Positions 28,522 to 42,450 of a stretch of DNA of 64,000 nucleotides are shown one piece after another. The stretch lies in NCBI RefSeq assembly GCF_039641995.1, contig NZ_CP087714.1:434001-498000 (forward strand). Reading direction: 5' to 3'. The notes under the pieces were generated by a model, which had not been told where the DNA came from, ran no database searches, and saw only the letters and a list, made by a program, of their open reading frames with translations. Position 1 is the first letter of the stretch; the number at the start of each line of letters is the position of its first letter. This DNA is from Geoglobus acetivorans. Its GTDB lineage: Archaea; Halobacteriota; Archaeoglobi; Archaeoglobales; Archaeoglobaceae. A program made the translations under genes and the position numbers.

Positions 28522-29247
28522 ATGCGCCTGAAGGTGGACCTTGCACCTCTGGAGCGAACGCCTGTTATAAATCTGAACCACCAGTACCACCTCGCCTCTG
28601 CAATTTACAGGGCAATCGAGAGGGCTGATCCGTCGCTATCTCTCGAACTCCACAGGCCTGGCGTTCCGAAGCTGTTCACCTTCAGCAAGCTCATGATTCC
28701 GGGGAGAAGATTCAGGATCAAGGGCGAAAAGATGGTCGTTTACGGTGACAGCGCTCATTTCTTCTTCTCCACGATGAGGAATGAGATCGCCGAGAAGCTC
28801 GTCGAGGGTCTGCTTTCAAAACCTGAAATTGAGATCTCGGGTGCAAGATTTCTGGTCTCTGAAGTCAGGGTTATGCGGGAGAAAAAAATTGGAAGCAGGG
28901 AGCGATTCGTAACTCTCAGCCCGATAAACGTTTCCAGAAATTCCGGAGAGAACGGGAACGGGAAGGTAATCGACCTCTATCCCAAGGATGCCGAGTTTTA
29001 CGAAATAATCCGGCAGAATCTGGTGAGAAAGTACATGGCACACTACCGGAGGACTCCGGAGAACGCTGATCTGGAAATAAAACCCCTGAGCGTCAAGGCC
29101 AAGAGGATCAGGATAAAGAACACGTTTCACCGCTGCGTGGAGATGGTTTTCGAGGCCAGGGGGAGTAAAGAGCTTCTGGAGGTAGGATACAAGGCTGGTT
29201 TTGGTGGTAAGAACAGCATGGGGCTCGGGATGGTGAAGGTGGTTTGA
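28522..29247 (+). CDS. cas6: CRISPR pre-crRNA endonuclease Cas6
   Basis: 241 residues with two ferredoxin-like halves. The C-terminal glycine-rich loop GYKAGFGGKNSMGLGMVKV is the Cas6 family mark. N-terminal NHQYHLASAIYRAI, together with H44 in LELHRPGVPKLFTFSKL, offers candidates for the catalytic histidine. It cuts the array transcript within the repeat, leaving an 8-nt handle; here that would be ATTGAAAG. It is first in the cas operon, with a leaderless start at 28522, and is followed by a toxin-antitoxin pair instead of cas8. Confidence 0.92.
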   Translation: MRLKVDLAPLERTPVINLNHQYHLASAIYRAIERADPSLSLELHRPGVPKLFTFSKLMIPGRRFRIKGEKMVVYGDSAHFFFSTMRNEIAEKLVEGLLSKPEIEISGARFLVSEVRVMREKKIGSRERFVTLSPINVSRNSGENGNGKVIDLYPKDAEFYEIIRQNLVRKYMAHYRRTPENADLEIKPLSVKAKRIRIKNTFHRCVEMVFEARGSKELLEVGYKAGFGGKNSMGLGMVKVV

Positions 29248-29985: not shown

Positions 29986-31728
29986 ATGGGTGAATCAGAG
30001 ACTGCGTGTCTGTCGAGCAGAGAAAATGGCAATACTATAGGGGAATTTGGCGAACTTCGGTTTACCGGCAACTGGTTCATTGATGCCGGGATACTGGGGT
30101 TTGTGAATTTGATGGAGGAGGTTTACGGGTGGGATTTGGAGGAGTTGCAAAGGAGAATTCGGGAGGAGCCAGAGGTTGTGTATTACGGATATTTTCCGTT
30201 TGCATATCTTTTTTACCATTCTAAAGTTAGGAGTGTATATCGGGAGATAACTAATACGAGAAAGACTATTCAAGATCTGAAGAAGAAAAGAAGTAATAGG
30301 CTGGAAGAATTATCAAAACTCTCAAAAAAAGAGAAGGGACTAAGTAAAAAGGAGATTAAAAAGATAGAAAAATTGGAAAGCGAGATTGAACTCATTGACA
30401 AGAATTTGGCAAAATTGGAGAGGCATATTTTGGATAATTTAAGGAAATTGGAAGCTGAAAAAACTAAATTGAAAAGCGATCTTTTCGAGTTGTTCAAAAA
30501 GAATCCTGATTTTTTTGATCAACCTGACAAGTTCAAGCCATCTATTGAAAAATTGATAGAAGGGTTTGACCTTAATTTGCCAGCAGACCATAGAAACTTT
30601 TTCTTATATAACCCTAAAAAAGACCTACATACTTCTTATGTTTACTTGAAACTGTTGCTCCAAGAAAGATTCGATGAACTATATCATTTTGTCGCCAAGT
30701 TGAGTAGCAAAAAGAAAAAGGAAGGGTTGAGTTACGAAATCTATCCAGATTCAACGATAAATCCGTTTTTATATTCTCCAGGTGAATTTCCAAATTTAGG
30801 TTACACTATGCCATCAAGCATAAAGGACATTAAACACGGCTTAAAATTGCGAATTCCTGTTTATCTTCTGTTACTTTCCTTTTCAAATGCATTTACCACG
30901 ATATCTGGCAGATATATTATGTTTTACGTTAATGAAATTTGGATGGCGTATGCCATTAATAAAAGGATTAAAAAGTACATCGAAAAATTGGGTGAAAACA
31001 TATCTATCTTTAAGGTTACGTGGATGTCAATAATTGATGAATTGGTAGAATGTAAAGCACAATTTTCTCTTGAGAATATGTATTTAATCGAATTTGGCGG
31101 TATAGACAACCAGAAATTAACTGATGTGGAATTTATTGGCATACCTAAATTGCAAGCGTATTTACTGCTTGATGACTATATCAGAGAATCGTTTAATGTT
31201 TATTTGAGCGTAAACGACGGCGACAAGCAAGTATGGGTCTTGGAGGAATTCATTAAAGGTAGACCTCTTTATCCACTTATCTTGAGGCATGTCGAACATT
31301 GCTTAACCAATAATCTTAGAGTAAATTACAGAACATCTGTGTATGCTTTGTGCATAGATGCAAAAATTCGGGAACACCAAAGCACAAGCGAGCTTTTCGG
31401 CGAGAGTTTCTTGACAAACTACCGGCAAATCTTGTGGGATGTTAAAGACGCTTACAGGTCTATTGGTGGATATGTTCAGACGGTAAGGCAGATTTTGGGT
31501 AAAGACGATTGCTTACAACTCATTGCGGCAATTAGAAAGGGCAATAAAGTTTCATTTGTGAATTATGTTCTTAAAAAGTTTTTAGAAAAATCCCACCGTA
31601 ATGTGGGCTTTATCTTCCGAAACATTGTGAATAACGACATTTCTTGGGAAAATTACGCTTTAAGTTTGGTTGTTGGCGTTTTAGGGGGTGTGAGTGAAAA
31701 TGACTCAGGAGAAAATTATGAAGAATGA
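29986..31728 (+). CDS. cas8: Type I-B Cascade large subunit Cas8 (Cst1-like)
   Basis: 580 residues. The start FTGNWFIDAGILGFVNLMEEVYG resembles the N-terminus of the Cst1/Cas8 family of Tneap-type systems, and the place before cas7 and cas5 fits. Residues about 85-170 form a long charged coiled coil (for example ELSKLSKKEKGLSKKEIKKI), unusually extended for this family. The paired CXXC motifs of many Cst1 proteins are not seen. The gene is visibly richer in A and T than its neighbours, which hints at separate acquisition. Cas8 recognises the PAM and holds Cascade together. The 3' end overlaps the small next gene. Confidence 0.75.
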   Translation: MGESETACLSSRENGNTIGEFGELRFTGNWFIDAGILGFVNLMEEVYGWDLEELQRRIREEPEVVYYGYFPFAYLFYHSKVRSVYREITNTRKTIQDLKKKRSNRLEELSKLSKKEKGLSKKEIKKIEKLESEIELIDKNLAKLERHILDNLRKLEAEKTKLKSDLFELFKKNPDFFDQPDKFKPSIEKLIEGFDLNLPADHRNFFLYNPKKDLHTSYVYLKLLLQERFDELYHFVAKLSSKKKKEGLSYEIYPDSTINPFLYSPGEFPNLGYTMPSSIKDIKHGLKLRIPVYLLLLSFSNAFTTISGRYIMFYVNEIWMAYAINKRIKKYIEKLGENISIFKVTWMSIIDELVECKAQFSLENMYLIEFGGIDNQKLTDVEFIGIPKLQAYLLLDDYIRESFNVYLSVNDGDKQVWVLEEFIKGRPLYPLILRHVEHCLTNNLRVNYRTSVYALCIDAKIREHQSTSELFGESFLTNYRQILWDVKDAYRSIGGYVQTVRQILGKDDCLQLIAAIRKGNKVSFVNYVLKKFLEKSHRNVGFIFRNIVNNDISWENYALSLVVGVLGGVSENDSGENYEE

Positions 31729-32032
31729 ACCTATGTATGATTTAGAACTGGAAGAGCTTATAAGAAGTGTTAGGACAGTATTTAACAGCGTCTCACAAAA
31801 CTACAGGCAAAAATTGATCTATAAACTGTTAAACGCAATAAAAACAGGAGACAGAAATGAATTTTACTGGAATGTTGCAAGAGCTCTGAATGCTAATATT
31901 GACAATCCAGCGGTTTCAAAAGTTTCTGGAATTATTTCAAGGCTTGCTATTTTAAGTGCAAAAGACTTTGAAAAAGTAGCGCATGCTGTAATTTTCGGAA
32001 TCATGTCTGCAGGGGGTGGGAAAAATGAGTAA
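31700..32032 (+). CDS. Small helical Cas protein, candidate Cas11 small subunit
   Basis: 110 residues, nearly all helix: YDLELEELIRSVRTVFNSVS, KLIYKLLNAIKTGDRNEF, VSGIISRLAILSAKDFEKVAHAVIFGIMSAGGG. It lies between cas8 and cas7 with 29-nt and 8-nt overlaps. Size, helical content and position match the Cascade small subunit. In many I-B systems that subunit comes from an internal start within cas8; here it appears as its own gene. I see no sequence motif that proves it. GGGGGTG precedes the ATG at 31700. Confidence 0.6.
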   Translation: MTQEKIMKNEPMYDLELEELIRSVRTVFNSVSQNYRQKLIYKLLNAIKTGDRNEFYWNVARALNANIDNPAVSKVSGIISRLAILSAKDFEKVAHAVIFGIMSAGGGKNE

Positions 32033-33188
32033 ATTTTTGGTTTTGGATGTGGTATTCTATGGCGGATCTCTGAACTATGATCAGGGAAGCGGAAATTATC
32101 AGGAGTTGAAGAAGGTAACCAAGTGGGATGGTAAGCAGTACACATTGGTAAGCAGATATGCTTTGAGATACAGTATTTTGGAGACTGCAAAAAGAATGGG
32201 TCTTTGGAAAACTGCGGATGCAGATAATTTACAAAAGGCTGGCGATGGAAATAAAACCGTTATTCAACCGTCAACTGAGCTTCTTCTAACCGGTAAAATA
32301 CTAAATTATCCAGAGTTCGATCTCTTTGGATATTTGATAACTTCAACGAGTCCTCAGAATTTTAGAGAAGCTCCAGTAAAAATAAGTCATGCAATATCCA
32401 TGACTCCATTTGCCTATGATGTTTTGTTTAATGCCAACATTGGATTGGCAAATAGAATGCGGGAGAAATACGGTGAAATGACTCCGAATCCTTTTACTTC
32501 AGAAGAACATCAGACCTTTTATCAGTACTCTATTGTGATAGATGTAGATAGGATCGGTGAAATTGAGGTATATTTGCAGAAAAGGGGAGAAATAGGTTTA
32601 ACTGATGAAAAAGAGAAATGGAAAGTGGACACAGTCCAAAAATCAGAAAACGGTATTGAGATCAAATTAAGGACCAAGAAGGGTGAAAAAGTACTATCAC
32701 AGGTCAAAGAATGTAGTTCAGACATTGTTGAATTAGAAAAGGTGTATCTTTTGAGATATCGCCTTAATGATGGCAAAGTCGTGAAAGACCGGATTATCCA
32801 GTTGATCAAAACGATATTGAACTTAAAAAGGAGCATAAAGGGGAGAGAAGAAGATTTGACACCAAAACTACTCATAGTTGGAATTTACAATAAACATCCA
32901 TACAAAACATTCAGAGACAAGATATTGTTAAAAGATGAGTACACAGAGGAGAGCTATGATGAAATAATTGAGGAAGAGCAGGATGGGAAGAAAATAGTGA
33001 AGGTAAAACATGTAATTTCAAAAAGCAAAAAACCAGTATTTGAAATTGCTGGATTGGGCAACGCAGAATGCAAGGAACTCCAAGAAAACGACGTTTTGGA
33101 TTTTGTTGAAAAGTTGTTCAATGGCGATGAGGAGTTAAGTGAAGTTAAGGTCTTCTATGATTCAGGGATTCAGGTAAAAAAGGCCTGA
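32025..33188 (+). CDS. cas7: Cascade backbone subunit Cas7 (Cst2/DevR family)
   Basis: 387 residues. The N-terminal LVLDVVFYGGSLNYDQGSGNYQELKKVTKWDGKQY and the later SRYALRYSILETAKRMG and VKISHAISMTPFAYDVLFNANIGLANRM are typical of the DevR/Cst2 branch of Cas7, the protein that coats the crRNA spacer. Unlike shorter relatives, it has a long charged insert around residues 180-330. The ATG at 32025 is preceded by GGGGGTGGG; an in-frame GTG at 32016 is less likely. Confidence 0.88.
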   Translation: MSKFLVLDVVFYGGSLNYDQGSGNYQELKKVTKWDGKQYTLVSRYALRYSILETAKRMGLWKTADADNLQKAGDGNKTVIQPSTELLLTGKILNYPEFDLFGYLITSTSPQNFREAPVKISHAISMTPFAYDVLFNANIGLANRMREKYGEMTPNPFTSEEHQTFYQYSIVIDVDRIGEIEVYLQKRGEIGLTDEKEKWKVDTVQKSENGIEIKLRTKKGEKVLSQVKECSSDIVELEKVYLLRYRLNDGKVVKDRIIQLIKTILNLKRSIKGREEDLTPKLLIVGIYNKHPYKTFRDKILLKDEYTEESYDEIIEEEQDGKKIVKVKHVISKSKKPVFEIAGLGNAECKELQENDVLDFVEKLFNGDEELSEVKVFYDSGIQVKKA

Positions 33189-33194
33189 AGACCT

Positions 33195-34049
33195 ATGTCA
33201 GAAAAAACGCTTTACATAGAGATATTTCAGCCATTTGCACAATACAGGAATCCATTTACTTTTTATTACGCTCAGAGCTACCCATTGCCACCGAAATCCA
33301 CTCTTATCGGCATGCTACAAAATGCCACTAATGATTTCTATGGGCATAAGTTTGGCATTGAAAACTGGTGGAGTCTGAAAACCAGCATTCACGGTGGTTT
33401 TGAGACTGTATTTTGGAATTATCAACAGATGATAAAGGGGGAAATTGCTATAGGGGATGTTGGACTTATAAATAAGCATGACAGAAATCCCTTGGGCAAA
33501 ACTTGGCATCCCTTATATCATTCAGCTATAACTGCGCAAAGAACTCCTGTATATCAGCAGGAATTGTTCAATGGACACATTCATGTGTTCCTCAGAGGAA
33601 ATAAAGAGATTCTTGAAAAAATTGAGAGTTCCCTGAATGTACCTAACAAAGTGCTATATCTTGGAAGAAGCGAGGATGTTGTGTTTGTGAAAAAAGCAGA
33701 GTTCGTAGATGGAGTTGAAAATACTGCTAAAAAATCCCTCTGGCTGACCTATCCTACGTACATCCGAAAAGAAATCAGGCATGAGAATGGCGAGAGGAAA
33801 GAATTTCCAATGAAGAACCAGAAGTATCCCGTTTATTCAATACCCGTATGTGTTTTATTTCTGAATGATGGCACTCCTGTCAAAAACAAGGCGGAAATAA
33901 CCAAAAAAACTGAGCGAAAGGTCAGCTTCGACACTGTGGTTTATACTGGATTCGATTATGTGGTAAAACTGAGTGAAAGCATAACCTATGAGGAGTTCCA
34001 GATCAATGGGAAGAAGTTCAGAATAATCTCTGAATTCGGGTGGTTGTGA
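33195..34049 (+). CDS. cas5: Cascade subunit Cas5 (Cas5t)
   Basis: 284 residues of the RAMP fold. YIEIFQPFAQYRNPFTFYYAQSYPLPPKSTLIGMLQNAT is the N-terminal Cas5 signature (F-x-x-P-x-T-x-x-G-M-L). It caps the 5' handle of the crRNA. It begins 6 nt after cas7, and its stop overlaps the cas3 start by one base (TGATG), so the order cas7-cas5-cas3 is translationally linked. Confidence 0.9.
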   Translation: MSEKTLYIEIFQPFAQYRNPFTFYYAQSYPLPPKSTLIGMLQNATNDFYGHKFGIENWWSLKTSIHGGFETVFWNYQQMIKGEIAIGDVGLINKHDRNPLGKTWHPLYHSAITAQRTPVYQQELFNGHIHVFLRGNKEILEKIESSLNVPNKVLYLGRSEDVVFVKKAEFVDGVENTAKKSLWLTYPTYIRKEIRHENGERKEFPMKNQKYPVYSIPVCVLFLNDGTPVKNKAEITKKTERKVSFDTVVYTGFDYVVKLSESITYEEFQINGKKFRIISEFGWL

Positions 34050-36664
34050 TGGTGAAGCTTTGGGAGCTGATCAGGGCAAAGTCTGAGGATGAAAAGCCAC
34101 TGTTAACGGACCACATTCTCGAATCTCTCAAGAGAGTTGAAGAGTTGAAGAAATTCGTGGAGGCAAACAATCTTGAGATTAGGGATGCTGATAAATTCTT
34201 TGAATCACTTGCTCTCGCTGCTTCCCTCCACGATCTGGGTAAGATTAATTACAGATTCCAGAAAGATGTTTACAGAAAGGATGACTTTCCAGAAGACTTG
34301 GAAAAGTTCCTGAGAATTACGAGAGGAGTCAGAATGCGGCACGAGCTCCTTTCTGCGTTATGGTGCTGCCTGATGCTCCCGGAAAACGATGAGTGGACTA
34401 AAAAAATACGCACAGCAGTTTTGCTTCACCATTACAACGAGTTTTATGTTGGCGAGAAGGATCTGGCCGAGATCGTGTTTAACTATATGCAGGATGTGAA
34501 AGATTATCTGAACTTCATGGATGAGAACTGGGAAGAAATTGAACAGTTCCTGATGGAACTTTTTAATAACCTCTCAGAGGAGTTAAGCGACGAGTTGGTT
34601 AAAAAATCGCTCAAGAGAATTAAAATCTCAAAGGACAGAGTGCTTGAGCTGAAGCAGCTGATAGAGGAAAAAGGGGATTTAATTGTCTTTGCTGAATTCT
34701 ATGAGATGGACAATGAAAACCCGAAACCGGAAGATTATAAGTTCATGGTTTTTCTGGGGTGCTTGCGCAGATGCGATTATTCGGCGAGTGGTGGGGTGGA
34801 AATAGAGGTTACGAAAAAGAAATTAATGAATATTCATGAGTCCGTTGTATCTAAGATTGTTGAAAGGATGGAGAGGGAAAACTGGGAGCGGTGGCAAATT
34901 GAGGCTTTGAAGAATGTGGGTGGCAATTCTGCGGTGCTAATCGCACCAACTGGATCGGGAAAGACGGAGTTTGCGCTGCTCTGGAGTGAAAAAACCGGTA
35001 AGAAAATTCTGTACACCCTGCCCCTGAGGGTAGCTCTGAATGACCTTTACAGGAGATTTCTAGAGTATGTTGGAACGCCAGATGGACACAATCTTGTTGC
35101 CCTGCTACATTCGACTGCATTTACCGAGTATCTCTCGGAGGAAAAACAGGTTGGGATGCCGCCAAATGTCGAAGAAAAAATGAACTCGTCAAAGCTACTG
35201 TCTGCTCCAGTTACTCTTTCAACCCCTGACCAGGTATTTCTTGCTTCGCTAAACTATTACGGCTCCGACAAGGTGGTTTCGGTATTTCCTCATACTGCGG
35301 TGATACTGGATGAAATCCAGAATTACAATCCGGAAATGGCAGCCATACTCCTGAAAACGTTAAAAATTGTGGAGGATCTCGGTGGAAGCATTCTCGTTAT
35401 GACAGCCACACTACCACCATATTTTGAACCGTTTTTTGGATACTCCGATTTAAACAAGTTTAATCTGAATGAAAAGCAAAGGAAAACTATTGAAAGATTT
35501 AGGTTGAGGAGTTTAAGGCAGATTGACACTTCTAAATTCAGAGACATAGTGAAAAATTACAATATTACGAGACACAGGGTTAAAGTTTTGGATAATCCTC
35601 TCTTAAGATATTCCGAGAATGGAGGAATATCGTTAGTCCCTGATGAACTCAGTAAGCTGATTAACAATATCTTCGATTCGGGCAAAAAGAGCATTTTTGT
35701 CGTTCTAAACAATGTCAGTAAAGCCATAGCTGTTTACAAAGAGCTGGAAAAGGACAGAGACTCAGTCTATCTGCTACACTCAAGAATTGTTGAGAATGAA
35801 AAATCAGCGAGAATAAAACTGATTAATGACGATTTGAAAGCTGGAAAAAATGTTATTGTCGTTTCAACACAGATAATCGAAGCTTCCGTGGATCTGGATT
35901 TTGATGCCATGATAACAGAACTCTCTCCAATAGACAGCCAGATACAGAGGTGGGGGAGAGTTTGGAGAAATCGTGAGGGGGAAGAATATGAGGATGAATC
36001 TCCAAACATTTACGTGTTTAAAACTGAGAGCAAATCGGGAGATTTCGACAAGGGGACAAGAGCAGTTTACAGTGGAGAGGTGAATAAAATTCTGCTTCAC
36101 GAGACACTTGAGGTTTTAAGGAAACACGAGAATGGGTTACTGGACTATGGGCTTGAACGGAAGATGATAGAAGAGATATTTAACAAAGCTGCTGATGGAA
36201 AAACCATAACTGAAATGTATATTGAAGAAGTGGTCAGAAATCTTGAGTTTCTTGATTATTTCTATGTTGAAAAGAAGTATCAAGCCCAAAAACTTTTCAG
36301 AAACATAGCTGGATTCCAAGTCGTGATTCCGAAGATTATGGAGCAGTATGGCGATGAACAGGACAGAAAGCTTGCAGGGATTGTAGAGAGGAGCGAGGAT
36401 TTGACATGGGATAAGATTTCTGAGCAAACCGGGATTCCGGATAAATGGGCAATTAAGGACAGGCTCTACAGATTCTCCATCAACGTTCCGTTTTACTATT
36501 TCGAACGGCTTTACAGCATGAACAGGCTGGGAAAGTTCAAGGGATACTATGTTTTAGACTTGAAGAAAGACGAAATTGAGCTGATTCACGAATACGGGCT
36601 TGATGAACTTATGGCTAAGCTGAATACCGAGCCTGAAGAGGTGTTAATTGGAATATACTCATGA
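34049..36664 (+). CDS. cas3: CRISPR nuclease-helicase Cas3
   Basis: 871 residues. The HD nuclease domain has H22, H61-D62 in AASLHDLGKINY, the histidine of MRHELLSALW and the pair in VLLHHYNEFY. The helicase follows: Walker A APTGSGKTE, Walker B box VILDEIQNYNPEM, motif III VMTATLPPYF and motif VI QIQRWGRVWR. It degrades DNA marked by Cascade. ATG 34049 is chosen over GTG 34040 because it matches the usual TGATG coupling. The family's full HD plus helicase fusion is complete, so interference should be functional. Confidence 0.93.
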   Translation: MVKLWELIRAKSEDEKPLLTDHILESLKRVEELKKFVEANNLEIRDADKFFESLALAASLHDLGKINYRFQKDVYRKDDFPEDLEKFLRITRGVRMRHELLSALWCCLMLPENDEWTKKIRTAVLLHHYNEFYVGEKDLAEIVFNYMQDVKDYLNFMDENWEEIEQFLMELFNNLSEELSDELVKKSLKRIKISKDRVLELKQLIEEKGDLIVFAEFYEMDNENPKPEDYKFMVFLGCLRRCDYSASGGVEIEVTKKKLMNIHESVVSKIVERMERENWERWQIEALKNVGGNSAVLIAPTGSGKTEFALLWSEKTGKKILYTLPLRVALNDLYRRFLEYVGTPDGHNLVALLHSTAFTEYLSEEKQVGMPPNVEEKMNSSKLLSAPVTLSTPDQVFLASLNYYGSDKVVSVFPHTAVILDEIQNYNPEMAAILLKTLKIVEDLGGSILVMTATLPPYFEPFFGYSDLNKFNLNEKQRKTIERFRLRSLRQIDTSKFRDIVKNYNITRHRVKVLDNPLLRYSENGGISLVPDELSKLINNIFDSGKKSIFVVLNNVSKAIAVYKELEKDRDSVYLLHSRIVENEKSARIKLINDDLKAGKNVIVVSTQIIEASVDLDFDAMITELSPIDSQIQRWGRVWRNREGEEYEDESPNIYVFKTESKSGDFDKGTRAVYSGEVNKILLHETLEVLRKHENGLLDYGLERKMIEEIFNKAADGKTITEMYIEEVVRNLEFLDYFYVEKKYQAQKLFRNIAGFQVVIPKIMEQYGDEQDRKLAGIVERSEDLTWDKISEQTGIPDKWAIKDRLYRFSINVPFYYFERLYSMNRLGKFKGYYVLDLKKDEIELIHEYGLDELMAKLNTEPEEVLIGIYS

Positions 36665-36872: not shown

Positions 36873-37097
36873 ATGCTAACAAGCAAACTCAGCAAAAAAG
36901 GACAGGTTGTAATCCCAAAAGAGATAAGAGAAAAGCTGAGGATCAAGCCGGGAGATGTTGTTGTTTTCAGGGAAGAGGGTGGTAGAGTATACATCGAGAC
37001 CGTTGGTGAGAAGCTCACGGAGATTCTGAAAGCTGGAAAGCCTGTTGGGGAAAGCAGTGTTGAATTCCAGAGAAGGCTGAGAGATGAATGGGAGTGA
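36873..37097 (+). CDS. vapB: AbrB-family antitoxin VapB
   Basis: 74 residues, MLTSKLSKKGQVVIPKEIREKLRIKPGDVVVFREEGGRVYIE, a SpoVT/AbrB swapped-hairpin DNA-binding domain, then a tail FQRRLRDEWE to bind the toxin. It directly precedes vapC. It sits downstream of cas3 on the same strand, with its own promoter-like element upstream. Confidence 0.85.
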   Translation: MLTSKLSKKGQVVIPKEIREKLRIKPGDVVVFREEGGRVYIETVGEKLTEILKAGKPVGESSVEFQRRLRDEWE

Positions 37098-37101
37098 TTT
37101 G

Positions 37102-37539
37102 ATGGAACCGAACGGGAAAAAGCTCAGGGTGTGTCTCGATACGAACGTATTCATTGCGGTGAAGAATCGTGAGGAGAGGCATGAGTTTTGCGAGCTGATA
37201 CTGGATCACGGTGAAACCGGAGCATTTGAGGTTGTTGTTCCTTCTGTTGTTGTTGCAGAGGTTCTGGTGGGTTTTTACAGAAATGGTGAAGAGATAGGAG
37301 CGAAGAGATTTTTAGACCATGTTGTTGCTAAATACAGGCTGAGAGAGCTTAATGCTGAAATTGCAGACCTGGCTGCGAGAATCAGGGCTGGAGGATTGAA
37401 GCTTCCCGATGCCATAGTGGTCGCAACGGCTATTCTCAGCAAGTCCATCCTTATAACCGGGGACAAAGGAATCAAACATGACGAACTGAAAATTCTAACT
37501 CCTGAGGAGTTTGTTGAAATTTACTTGAGCGGGAAGTAA
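37102..37539 (+). CDS. vapC: PIN-domain toxin VapC
   Basis: 145 residues. RVCLDTNVFIAV gives the first aspartate, PSVVVAEVLVGF the glutamate, LKLPDAIVVATAIL the next aspartate and LITGDKGI the last. All four acidic residues of the PIN site are present. ATG 37102 follows GGGAG and lies after the vapB stop; an in-frame ATG at 37084 would overlap vapB by 14 nt and is also possible. With the antitoxin it is one of two VapBC pairs between cas3 and cas2. Confidence 0.85.
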   Translation: MEPNGKKLRVCLDTNVFIAVKNREERHEFCELILDHGETGAFEVVVPSVVVAEVLVGFYRNGEEIGAKRFLDHVVAKYRLRELNAEIADLAARIRAGGLKLPDAIVVATAILSKSILITGDKGIKHDELKILTPEEFVEIYLSGK

Positions 37540-37868: not shown

Positions 37869-38285
37869 TCAAATCTCTGTCTCCTTTATAAAATCTTCCA
37901 CACTCACGACTCTGTCAGAGATCTCTGGGATTCTTCTGAAGTGCTTCAGGTTGTTGGTCACAAGGATATCTCCTTTTTTATGTATGAATGTTGCAGCAAT
38001 GACTGAATCCTCAAAATCCACGGGCATGCCGTTTGAGACCAAATACGCGTTTATTTTACCTGTAATTTCCGCTATTTTCATATCCAGAGGGACCACTTCG
38101 AATAGTGAAAAGAGCCTTCTCGCCTTGCTTGTCGCGGCTTTTCTATCTGTTCTCAAATGGGTTCCGGTAAATATCTCAGCAGCAACGACAGAGCTAATAA
38201 ACACATCGTGATGGATGAAGTGCCTGATGTTGACTTTTCCGCGCTCTATCTCTACTATCACACTTGTATCTAAGCTAACCTTCAT
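37869..38285 (-). CDS. vapC: PIN-domain toxin VapC
   Basis: 138 residues. VSLDTSVIVEIERGK, SSVVAAEIFTGT, PVDFEDSVIAATFIHKKG and LVTNNLKHFRRI are the four PIN-site segments; the first aspartate and the glutamate are clear, while the last site has NN in place of the common xD. Its start overlaps the antitoxin stop by 4 nt. It points away from cas3 and is on the same strand as cas4-cas1-cas2. Confidence 0.83.
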   Translation of the reverse strand: MKVSLDTSVIVEIERGKVNIRHFIHHDVFISSVVAAEIFTGTHLRTDRKAATSKARRLFSLFEVVPLDMKIAEITGKINAYLVSNGMPVDFEDSVIAATFIHKKGDILVTNNLKHFRRIPEISDRVVSVEDFIKETEI

Positions 38286-38521
38286 GGAATTACACCGAGT
38301 TCCCTTAATCTGTCTCTCGAATCTTTTCTCATTTTATTCATAGTTTCCTCAAAATCTCTTGGGAGGAAGTCTGTTATCTCCTCCATCTCAATTTTCCTTA
38401 TCACGACCTTGTCTCCCTCCACAGTGACATCTACTCTATCTCCCTCTTTTATTCCAACCTTTTCTCGAACTTCTTTTGGTATGGTTATCTGGGAATTTCT
38501 CGTGACCTTTACTATTGCCAT
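38282..38521 (-). CDS. vapB: AbrB-family antitoxin VapB
   Basis: 79 residues. MAIVKVTRNSQITIPKEVREKVGIKEGDRVDVTVEGDKVVIRK is the AbrB-type domain, with a helical tail. A TATA box (AAATATATAATTT, about 38545-38557 minus strand) lies 29 nt upstream, which suggests a leaderless mRNA. Pairs with the vapC overlapping its stop. Only 60 bp separate it from the end of cas2. Confidence 0.85.
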   Translation of the reverse strand: MAIVKVTRNSQITIPKEVREKVGIKEGDRVDVTVEGDKVVIRKIEMEEITDFLPRDFEETMNKMRKDSRDRLRELGVIP

Positions 38522-38581: not shown

Positions 38582-38845
38582 TCAGATCACCTCATCCATG
38601 CTGCTCTTCTCCACACCAATAACCTCCCTCTTCATCGCATCAGCACTCCTCAGCCTGTAAATCACGATCATGTCCTCGTCCTCATCTATTATCTTTTTCA
38701 GCCCCATCCTTATCTCCTCGAGGTCTGCGGGAGTAACCTCTCCCTCGAAAAGCGAGTTCTGAACCCAGTTTAAGTGCTGCCTGAGAAACTTCTTCACCCT
38801 GTTCACCCTGTCCACGTTCACGTCGTAGGCTACGATCACGTACAT
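38582..38845 (-). CDS. cas2: CRISPR adaptation protein Cas2
   Basis: 87 residues: MYVIVAYDVNVDRVNRVKKFLRQHLNWVQNSLFEGEVT is the ferredoxin-like Cas2 fold with the metal-binding aspartate in YDVN. Cas2 dimers bridge two Cas1 dimers in the spacer integration complex. It follows cas1 after one base on the minus strand and ends the adaptation operon. Confidence 0.93.
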   Translation of the reverse strand: MYVIVAYDVNVDRVNRVKKFLRQHLNWVQNSLFEGEVTPADLEEIRMGLKKIIDEDEDMIVIYRLRSADAMKREVIGVEKSSMDEVI

Positions 38846-38846
38846 T

Positions 38847-39815
38847 CTACCACCACATCACGAACGGCCTGTATTTTTCGGCGTTGAGAACATGCTTGAC
38901 GAGTTTGTAACACTCCAGCCTCATCAATCTCTGATAGGAAACACTCCTTTTCAGCTTCCTGTGCTTCACCGTCTTTTCAAGCCTCTCGTTGAACGCTTTG
39001 ACGAACTTCTTTCTGCCGTTCTCGTTCAGCAGGACTCCATTGAAGCGGTCGTCGAAGTCGCCCTCTGTCACAACCTTCCTGTTGACAAGGTTGAATATCA
39101 GCCTGTCCACTATCACGGGTTTGAACAGCTCAGCTATGTCCAGCGCGAGGCTGAACCTCCTCTCTAAGGGTTCGTGCAGGAAGCTTATCGCCGGGTGGAG
39201 CTGGGTGTGGTAGATTTCGGATAGAACGGCAGAATACAGCAGCGAGTTGCCGAAGCTGATCATCGCATTAACCTCATTCTCAGGAGGCTGCCTGCTCCTC
39301 CTCTCGAACTTCATCTCCTGCAGGATGGAATCGAATTTCGAGTAGTAGGCGCTCCTTGCCGTGGCCTCTGCACCCATAACCTCGTCGATCCCTTCGGCAT
39401 CGGCAAGGGTCTGCAGTGCAGAGATAACCTCGCTGTCATCCTCTCCACTCTTTCTCAGCACCCTTGCCATGTTCATTATGCTCCCTTCGACAAAGGCCCT
39501 GGCAAGGTAGAGCCTTTTCCCGTCGTCGAGGTAATGCTCCGCCTGCCTCACCACAACCTCTCCGGAGACGAGACTTTTCCTCGGGTAAAACGATCCCTCG
39601 TAAATGCCGTACCTGTTGAAGAAGTGGACGCATATTCCTTCTTTTGCCAGATACGAGAGTGCCCTGGATGTGACGGTCAGGGAACCGAGGGCGTAGATGG
39701 CGTATATTGCACTGATGGGGATAGGCCTTCTTCCCTCCTCATTTTCGAAGTAGATCGTGTTTTCCCTCCTCTTGAGCTTTCCGTCCGAAACTATGTAGAA
39801 ATTCTTCTTCCTCAT
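38847..39815 (-). CDS. cas1: CRISPR integrase Cas1
   Basis: 322 residues of the Cas1b type common in I-B systems. Catalytic residues are E150 (MGAEATARS), the histidines of [13 protein letters not shown] (H207, H214) and D226 ([10 protein letters not shown]). The N-terminal beta-sandwich with [29 protein letters not shown] is standard. Starts 9 nt after the cas4 stop. All residues needed for integration are present. Confidence 0.95.
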
Positions 39816-39824
39816 CTCAACCCC

Positions 39825-40322
39825 TCACGTGAAGCAGAACTCGAAATAGGCGCATTTTCTGCAGTGGGGCCTGTACTCTGGATCGGGCATTTCGCCCTCA
39901 ACAATACTGGGAATCTCCTCCAGAACTCTCTCGATCTCTCTGACCGCATTCCCATCCAGCACGACATCCACGCTTTTCTTCTGTTTCGGAAAGCTCAGCT
40001 TTCCAACGGCCTTTATTCCAAATCTCGACAGGTAGTAGAGGTAGTAGAGAAGCTGATAGTGGCTGGCCTTCTCGAATGCCCTGCTCTTCTTAACCTCCCG
40101 TATCTCAACCACGTCACCCTTCCTTACGGCATCAATCGCTATCGGGCCAATCCTGACCTCCTTTTCATCCCTGTCAAAAACGCTCCTGTGGATGAGCTTT
40201 CCGAGCTTCACCGCATCGCTCTCCCTTTCCATGCTCACATTGTGACTGAAGAGCCAGAGCTTTGTTTTGCAGACAAAGTAGTAGTTCACCTGCACACCTC
40301 TGATGTACATCTCGTCTATCAT
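39825..40322 (-). CDS. cas4: CRISPR adaptation nuclease Cas4
   Basis: 165 residues. The four iron-sulfur cysteines are C18 (NYYFVCKTKLW), C154, C157 and C163 (HCRKCAYFEFC). The PD-(D/E)XK nuclease core is GPIAIDAVRKGDVVEIREVKKS, and SHYQLLYYLYYL is the QhxxY motif. Cas4 trims pre-spacers and helps pick those next to a PAM. It is first in the cas4-cas1-cas2 operon, divergent from the array, with the leader on its other side. Confidence 0.93.
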   Translation of the reverse strand: MIDEMYIRGVQVNYYFVCKTKLWLFSHNVSMERESDAVKLGKLIHRSVFDRDEKEVRIGPIAIDAVRKGDVVEIREVKKSRAFEKASHYQLLYYLYYLSRFGIKAVGKLSFPKQKKSVDVVLDGNAVREIERVLEEIPSIVEGEMPDPEYRPHCRKCAYFEFCFT

Positions 40323-40797
40323 TTAATCAGAATGGCTTTTGAAAAATAAAAGATTTTTCAAACTTGAATTTTCAAGTGCAGTTTAATGAGTTGATGATGC
40401 TGTAGGATTTATTTTTTCAACTCTGCTATCAGTCTTTCCCTGAGGATTTTCCCCTGTTTTCAATTTACTCTTTTTCTACCCCTCCACTTCCGGAATGGGG
40501 CCATCTGGTGACGTCGCAAATCTTTTAATCCATCATTTTTATAGTAAAACCTTTTAATTTTCACTTCCTTCTTTCCAGAATTCGGGCCAGATTATTTTTA
40601 TCTCCCTTCTCTCCCCAGACAGAATTAATCAGTTTCAGAATAGAACCTTCTAAATAACCCGAATTCAAAAACAAACCCATGAATAAAAGTCGCATGACGT
40701 TATAAATGACCTGCATCACTGGGGGTTCGCTGCAGTATTTAAATGAAAGAAGCGAGAAGAAAGCTTTTTAAAGGAATTTGGGGGAATATTACCGGAG
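40323..40797 (+). promoter_or_regulatory. CRISPR leader
   Basis: 475 bp without a credible ORF, AT-rich, between cas4 and the first repeat. Two TATA-like elements face the array: GTTATAAATG at about 40698-40707 and GTATTTAAATG at about 40734-40744. The second would start transcription near 40768, about 30 nt before repeat 1. The degenerate repeat at the other end of the array confirms that the leader is on this side. The promoter for cas4 is probably in the left part. Confidence 0.8.
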
Positions 40798-42415
40798 GTT
40801 GAAATCAGACCTTTAAGGGATTGAAAGATTACCTACATCCACAACAAAATATACTTTTTTAGGGAGTTGAAATCAGACCTTTAAGGGATTGAAAGTTATG
40901 AAAGGTTAAGTATATATTTAATTTGAACAAATATGTTGAAATCAGACCTTTAAGGGATTGAAAGGATAACGCTCGATATGATCACTAATGAGAAATTGAA
41001 GTTGAAATCAGACCTTTAAGGGATTGAAAGGCGATATTGAAATCTCGTTCAGCGAGAGCAGAGTTACGGTTGAAATCAGACCTTTAAGGGATTGAAAGGT
41101 AAAGCCTGTATGCTTCAATGAGCTTTTCGTTCATTCTGTTGAAATCAGACCTTTAAGGGATTGAAAGAAAGAGAGCACATTGACCTCGAAGATCTGATAT
41201 ACAATGTTGAAATCAGACCTTTAAGGGATTGAAAGGAATATCCCATTACCATCACCTGAATGCCTTCAACACTGTTGAAATCAGACCTTTAAGGGATTGA
41301 AAGTGAGATATAATGTATGTGTTCGGTGTGGCCGGATCATAGTTAAAATCAGACCTTTAAGGGATTGAAAGACCTCACCAACAGCCTTAACGGTCTTAGC
41401 AAGTGGATGTTAAAATCAGACCTTTAAGGGATTGAAAGACCTCACCAACAGCCTTAACGGTCTTAGCAAGTGGATGTTAAAATCAGACCTTTAAGGGATT
41501 GAAAGACCTCACCAACAGCCTTAACGGTCTTAGCAAGTGGATGTTAAAATCAGACCTTTAAGGGATTGAAAGACCTCACCAACAGCCTTAACGGTCTTAG
41601 CAAGTGGATGTTAAAATCAGACCTTTAAGGGATTGAAAGACCTCACCAACAGCCTTAACGGTCTTAGCAAGTGGATGTTAAAATCAGACCTTTAAGGGAT
41701 TGAAAGACCTCACCAACAGCCTTAACGGTCTTAGCAAGTGGATGTTAAAATCAGACCTTTAAGGGATTGAAAGAAGTTACTGTCTGATCCACTGGATGAT
41801 CAGGAAGCCTGTTAAAATCAGACCTTTAAGGGATTGAAAGGAATCACCTGTTCAATCTCAGCTCCGACGAATCCCTCTGTTAAAATCAGACCTTTAAGGG
41901 ATTGAAAGATCCTCGCAAACGCATATATCAATATCGGCAAAAGCGTTAAAATCAGACCTTTAAGGGATTGAAAGATATAAACCTTTGTCAGACAGTCAGA
42001 CAATAGAAGAGTTAAAATCAGACCTTTAAGGGATTGAAAGGGGAGTTCTCGAGGCGTTCTTCATCCCACCCGAGATGTTAAAATCAGACCTTTAAGGGAT
42101 TGAAAGGCAGGCACGATAGTAGATGCAACGGACCTTAACTCAGTTAAAATCAGACCTTTAAGGGATTGAAAGATTATTCCCTCAAAGCTTCCAGTGTACC
42201 AGACATTATCGTTAAAATCAGACCTTTAAGGGATTGAAAGGTAGTCCCTCAATATTGCCTTACTGATCCTCTCCAGTTAAAATCAGACCTTTAAGGGATT
42301 GAAAGGTAGTCCCTCAATATTGCCTTACTGATCCTCTCCAGTTAAAATCAGACCTTTAAGGGATTGAAAGTTTATAGGTTCTGGAACTGCTGCAGTTGCG
42401 TTAAAATTAGACCTC
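40798..42415 (+). CRISPR. CRISPR array, 24 full repeats plus a degenerate terminal repeat
   Basis: The 30-nt repeat begins GTTGAAATC or GTTAAAATC, continues AGACCTTTAAGG and ends GATTGAAAG. Repeat 1 is at 40798-40827, repeat 24 at 42341-42370, and a decayed copy (GTTAAAATTAGACC) begins at 42400. There are 24 spacers, mostly 35-39 nt; the last is only 29 nt. Repeats 1-8 have G at position 4 and repeats 9-24 have A. Six consecutive spacers (between repeats 9 and 15) are identical, and spacers 22 and 23 are identical to each other, leaving 18 distinct spacers. The 8-nt crRNA handle would be ATTGAAAG, transcribed on the plus strand. Confidence 0.98.
41372..41743 (+). repeat. Six tandem copies of one CRISPR spacer
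   Basis: The 37-nt spacer starting ACCTCACCAACAGCC and ending AGCAAGTGGAT recurs at 41372, 41439, 41506, 41573, 41640 and 41707. Each copy is separated by an identical repeat, so a 67-bp unit is present six times with no base difference that I can find. Confidence 0.95.
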
Positions 42416-42450
42416 GAAAAATCTTTTTAATGGCCTGCATAGTTTGAACG

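Follow-up and report, generated by a model that had tools for sequence, protein, structure and literature searches.

A spacer in six tandem copies and single-unit spacer duplications in two CRISPR systems of Geoglobus acetivorans

How does one CRISPR spacer come to stand six times in a row? The question is raised by a type I-B array of the archaeon Geoglobus acetivorans, found in a 64,000-nucleotide stretch of its genome (contig NZ_CP087714.1, positions 434,001 to 498,000), the whole of which is referred to here as the window and supplies the positions given unless the genome is named. The block comprises spacers 9-14, six identical 37-nt spacers in identical 67-bp units, with the copies at 41372-41408, 41439-41475, 41506-41542, 41573-41609, 41640-41676 and 41707-41743 and the identical 30-nt repeat GTTAAAATCAGACCTTTAAGGGATTGAAAG ahead of each. 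Measured between the outer ends of copies 1 and 6 it spans 41372-41743, and with the outer repeats the tract extends over 41342-41773; TRF reported it at 41342-41774, with a period of 67, 6.5 copies, 100% matches and 0% indels. The original prediction, that six tandem spacers and their repeats are identical, is exact: the copies, examined for base changes that would speak against it, agree to the base. Chance is a negligible source of this identity. Adjacent units are the same in both repeat and spacer, the mark of a tandem duplication, and a search of the organism's own genome allowing up to three mismatches returned the six array copies only, a distribution that speaks against repeated acquisition.

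The array occupies 40798-42424 on the plus strand and comprises 24 full 30-nt repeats and a degenerate last repeat, with its leader on the low-coordinate side; regular, near-constant repeats and varied spacers beside a leader identify it as a CRISPR array. About 284 bp of the leader (40514-40797, plus strand) are homologous to the three other I-B leaders of this genome. In an alignment of the four, homology begins at one common point and continues into repeat 1, and the last 198 bp of the window leader together with repeat 1 are 95-98% identical to the other three. The leader-proximal part, with repeats 1-8 and spacers 1-8, all different (40798-41341), is followed by the six-copy block with repeats 9-15 (41342-41773) and then by spacers 15-21 with repeats 16-21, these spacers again all different (41774-42210). 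Further downstream is a second tandem duplication, absent from the original prediction, in which repeats 22-23 and the identical 35-nt spacers 22 (42241-42275) and 23 (42306-42340) form 65-bp units (42211-42340). Lastly, the trailer end, whose boundary was placed approximately and by eye, holds repeat 24, the 30-nt spacer 24 and the degenerate terminal repeat (42341-42424).

Two repeat variants divide the array (40798-42370), GTTG in repeats 1-8 and GTTA in repeats 9-24, with the switch at the leader-side edge of the six-copy block. A switch between repeats 8 and 9 suggests that, at the time when spacer 8 was the latest addition, the repeat next to the leader changed or underwent conversion from another array. 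The change would then come one acquisition later than the spacer now present in six copies, and its contact with the block edge may be a coincidence. Elsewhere in the genome, the three other leader-bearing I-B arrays have full repeats of the G variant and a lone relic at 407 kb is of the A variant; the sister genome G025 carries the A variant in 4 of 5 arrays.

Adaptation and effector genes lie near the array, all with intact frames. On the minus strand are cas4 (39825-40322; PF01930, TIGR00372), cas1 of type I-B (38847-39815; PF01867, and TIGR03641 cas1_HMARI at 475 bits) and cas2 (38582-38845; TIGR01573, with PF09827 in the genome search), the last an intact open reading frame. The plus strand carries cas6 (28522-29247; TIGR01877), cas7 of the type I-B Cst2/DevR kind (32016-33188; TIGR02585, PF01905), cas5 (33195-34049; PF09704, with TIGR02593 above cut-off and TIGR01895 just below) and cas3, a helicase with an HD domain (34040-36664; TIGR01587, TIGR01596). 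The product of 29986-31728 (plus strand), which matched no Pfam or NCBIfam model at E 0.001, is likely the cas8-type large subunit, so named by its position. The type I-B label follows from Cas1 and Cas7, both of which match type I-B models. Between cas3 and cas2 are two PIN-domain genes (36873-37539, plus strand; 37869-38521, minus strand), each preceded, by eye, by a small AbrB-type antitoxin-like gene.

The original prediction viewed the six copies as a local event; instead, duplication proved to be genome-wide. The genome, a single contig of 1,903,522 bp that is 99.98% complete, has four leader-bearing I-B arrays with 55 spacers, 45 of them distinct. Five tandem blocks occur in three of these arrays: the ×6 and ×2 blocks of the window array, a ×3 block (spacers 1-3) and a ×2 block (spacers 5-6) in array L039, and a ×2 block (spacers 8-9) in array L040, with none in L037. 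The four I-B arrays have no spacer in common with one another. About 0.75 Mb away is a second CRISPR system (arrays L138 and L204, genome 1208-1234 kb), with a repeat unlike the I-B one and with cas1, cas2 and cas4 genes of its own; we regard it as type III-A-like because csm1, csm2 and csa1 models scored above their cut-offs, csx1 and csa3 scoring below. Its repeat occurs in 49 copies in the two arrays, and its 47 spacers, 44 of them distinct, include three ×2 tandem pairs that were also read in the sequence. Across the arrays of both repeat types, I-B and III-A-like, the genome holds eight tandem blocks (×6, ×3 and six ×2) among 89 distinct spacers, all of them single-unit, and no dispersed duplicate spacers. 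Within their arrays the blocks stand at runs 9 and 17 of 18 (window array), 1 and 3 of 9 (L039), 8 of 8 (L040) and 5, 15 and 27 of 30 (second system). Fold energy and GC content did not differ between the duplicated spacers and the others (8 vs 81).

A Cas1 search of 341 genomes of the same phylum returned 249 with Cas1, and survey regions were picked by hand among the matches listed: 60 cas-centred 20-kb regions, 59 located through Cas1 and one through Cas2. They represent 57 genomes with one to five contigs each, three of these genomes belonging to the window's own family. Repeat detections of one array were dropped before counting, as were two tracts with a detected repeat below 24 nt (the second tract of region L172, with 13 units and one tandem pair, and the tract of L202, with 18 spacers and none). 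Region L152 yielded no array, L202 was left without a counted one, and arrays cut at a region edge were counted as far as they reached. The 58 yielding regions gave 65 arrays with 3,225 spacers, 3,195 of them distinct. These arrays held 14 tandem duplications, of which 13 involved a single unit and one involved four units, with at most three copies. Against this rate of 14/3,195, the 8/89 of the present genome corresponds to an odds ratio of 22 (p = 5e-8), and each system is in excess by itself (I-B, 5/45, p = 4e-6; second system, 3/44, p = 1.4e-3), in a comparison with hand-picked, near-cas regions where blocks within a genome may share a cause and sequencing methods may differ.

In arrays of the window's repeat family from two closed sister genomes (G025 and G026), 0 of 95 spacers were duplicated (p = 0.0025). 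Family arrays, many of them from draft genomes and partly overlapping, held another five events, single-unit in three cases and two-unit in the other two, with genome G050 accounting for two of the five. Dispersed duplicates formed 12 families in the survey, a tandem-to-dispersed ratio of 14:12 vs 8:0 here (two-sided p = 0.03). On a published scale, SpacerPlacer finds 805 duplication candidates among 24,090 spacers (3.3%) and refers to an experiment in which about 10% of the arrays had duplications (PMC11472070); extra copies here number 13 of 102 spacers (13%), approximately fourfold above the SpacerPlacer scale, which is a differently built yardstick. The size of the excess depends on the yardstick, about twentyfold by the survey and about fourfold by the published scale.

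In our judgement the six copies probably arose inside the array by unit duplication, the same process having made the seven other single-unit duplications of the genome. Duplication at the level of the array is the best explanation because the copies are base-identical, side by side and absent from every other array, while separate acquisition events tend to be offset; in a Sulfolobus population, those of one region were offset in 37 of 41 pairs (PMC2946923). All 10 extra I-B copies are base-identical to a twin, of the same length, beside it and confined to one of four arrays with nearly the same leader. Spacer lengths range over 33-43 nt, with a 65-nt spacer and a terminal 30-nt spacer as exceptions, and the chance that two agree in length is 0.19. 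Each of these features alone is unlikely under re-acquisition, and the preference of the original prediction for unit duplication over six acquisitions is supported by them together with the published offsets. Against this reading, no strain carrying the spacer in single copy, the expected ancestral state, was found; the nine arrays of G025 and G026 that were compared have no spacer in common with this genome.

Slippage is the usual proposal for tandem spacer duplication (PMC8047081, PMC11472070). Misalignment of neighbouring 30-bp repeats would duplicate one repeat-spacer unit, whether sister arrays exchanged unequally or replication slipped; both acts, named in the original prediction, fit the block and are indistinguishable here. 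A pair of identical units would then present some 97 bp of perfect homology where a repeat by itself presents 30, making in-register slips easier, and growth to six could proceed stepwise. Among the four I-B leaders, two groups of variant sites occur in all four combinations, with two upstream sites pairing the window leader with that of L039 and five downstream sites pairing it with that of L040, a sign of recombination between arrays.

The presence of duplications in both CRISPR systems points to a rate that is high for repeat-rich arrays genome-wide and independent of the I-B adaptation proteins. With different repeats and different Cas1 proteins in the two systems, a host process independent of Cas1 and Cas2 is the reading we favour, and in Streptococcus thermophilus unit duplication is reported without cas1 or cas2 in two unlike systems (Zhang et al. 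2021, via PMC9048733). Faulty I-B adaptation genes were rejected as the sole cause, since the frames of cas1, cas2 and cas4 are intact and duplications occur in the second system as well. A general tandem-repeat mutator was likewise rejected: at a period of at least 9 and a match of at least 95%, 0 of 11 TRF rows qualified in 378 kb of this genome, compared with 0 of 5 for G025 and 1 of 14 (a 12-bp period) for G026, each over 199 kb; these samples are parts of genomes, and slippage at pairs of 30-bp repeats may still be raised. With both systems affected and the sampled non-CRISPR DNA free of a tandem-repeat excess, the cause appears to act on arrays in general. Loss of RadA or NucS was not supported as a cause, RadA-family matches numbering five in each of five genomes; no NucS match above cut-off was found in any of the five.

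The size of the duplicated segment complicates simple misalignment. Misalignment deletions span 2.7 units on average (PMC11472070), and multi-unit blocks would be expected beside single ones among slippage products; all eight blocks here are single-unit, although this expectation comes from deletions and may not suit duplications. Single-unit events make up 21 of 22 in the survey and this genome combined (binomial p ~1e-8 against 37%) and three of five in the family arrays. The contrast between single-unit duplications and deletions of 2.7 units suggests that plain misalignment may not be the whole story. The survey duplications are themselves nearly all single-unit (13/14), unlike deletion blocks of that mean length, and single-unit bias was accordingly dropped as a mark of this genome. 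We tentatively raise a hyper-duplication state, a possible but doubtful extension, in which replication or repair altered in trans, or a copying process common to the arrays, would multiply units singly in both systems and guide copy number would be fast-changing and selectable, up to six.

If array-level duplication supplied the copies, guide dose may have helped to retain them, although it is not needed for their origin. The block would form part of a single precursor transcript, from which Cas6 would release six equal crRNAs, giving this spacer a larger share of guide, and a raised crRNA dose is plausible on this analysis. A stronger version, which we think unlikely, is that a persistent invader favoured cells with more guide copies, so that chance duplications stacked to six. 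It draws on dose-dependent silencing in Sulfolobus solfataricus, where an engineered array carrying a spacer three times is reported to give 80% silencing of an enzyme activity vs about 10% with one copy (PMC5068938), and on the six copies exceeding the maximum of three in the 65 survey arrays. The precedent resembles the present block in placing identical spacers in tandem in a hyperthermophilic archaeon, with stronger silencing from more copies, but differs in being a designed construct on a virus vector and in relying on type III RNA targeting (PMC5068938). Moreover, with eight different spacers duplicated across two systems, the pattern resembles the outcome of a rate more than that of a response to a single target. 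Selection also explains retention and not origin; it adds to the slippage account, and the odds of the two overlap.

Searches for a target likewise came back negative, which weighs against selection. The original prediction had called for a comparison with viruses and plasmids, and no target was found when the spacer was run against viruses and the array against plasmids. The six-copy spacer had no exact match in viral contigs, no match as codon-degenerate patterns in three reading frames, chance-level matches only among phages (14 records, E about 6) and none in 54 other genomes of the family at up to three mismatches; the window array had no match in plasmids. Phage searches with the four other duplicated I-B spacers yielded no convincing match (best E 0.5). 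Viruses of Geoglobus and Archaeoglobus have been described (PMC12451623).

Less probable again is that the duplications, or the number six, stem from sequencing or assembly, or that the repeats of the control genomes were collapsed. An excess in both systems of one genome and not in its sisters is also what a difference in method would produce, and all eight blocks are exact single units. However, the genome is a single, nearly complete contig, and an error would have to recur at eight places in two systems; the TRF result means in addition that spurious duplication would be confined to arrays, although it is there that reads are most misleading. When assembled from short reads, such tracts are more often collapsed than expanded.

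We give still less weight to a coupling with adaptation, in which the newest unit would have been copied at the leader, by Cas1-Cas2 or through gap repair, before later spacers buried the block. The ×3 block of L039 does lie at the leader-most position, and this origin would suit duplications that are all single and adjacent with none dispersed. The same fault would nevertheless be needed in two unlike Cas1-Cas2 pairs, the blocks lie throughout the arrays, although burial could account for that, and the Streptococcus thermophilus duplications occur in the absence of either gene (PMC9048733).

Adaptation can favour certain protospacers. The sixfold uptake of one protospacer is nonetheless extremely improbable, having nothing in its favour beyond the identity of the copies, since independent uptake is mostly offset (PMC2946923) and would vary in length, and four near-identical leaders were available to receive copies that all lie beside their twins.

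Array-level duplication also has close counterparts in other organisms; the kind of event is already known, and it is the six copies and the genome-wide excess that are unusual. Published tandem spacer duplications likewise consist of identical repeat-spacer units for which repeat misalignment is invoked (PMC8047081, PMC11472070); what sets the present case apart from those reported there is a ×6 block, eight blocks in one genome and a share of extra copies well above that of the SpacerPlacer candidates. In the CRISPR1 array of group B Streptococcus, internal duplication of a single spacer is reported between serial isolates, with units added in 3 of 7 women, and duplications in 73 isolates (35.6%), one spacer recurrently (PMC5641575). 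That system is of type II-A and bacterial, one of its duplicated spacers is non-adjacent, and the portions of the report that deal with duplication describe no sixfold tandem (PMC5641575). The Streptococcus thermophilus case matches ours in showing unit duplication in two unlike CRISPR types of one organism, and differs in being experimental and bacterial, where ours is inferred from an archaeal genome with types I-B and III-A-like (PMC9048733). A title-level literature search, which is not proof of absence, found no title on sixfold tandem spacers.

Measurements of how CRISPR arrays gain and lose units in the absence of new infection are poor. With eight single-unit duplications spread over two unlike systems, this genome could allow the contribution of the host to be told apart from that of the Cas1-Cas2 machinery, and the excess in both makes the mechanism testable. 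If copy number can reach six, the array offers a natural test of immunity tuning by guide dose; if the copies prove absent in long reads, it becomes a warning about array assemblies.

Two further features of the I-B arrays were observed. In L040, which lies on the minus strand, the leader-adjacent spacer is 65 nt long (genome 1778670-1778734), the other spacers being 30-43 nt, and it has no other match in 55 genomes of the family, its own included. Locus L038 (1350-1448, genome 407 kb) consists of two repeats and lacks a leader. By eye, its upstream flank resembles that of the 13-repeat array L098 of G025, and the remnant may represent an array that has collapsed.
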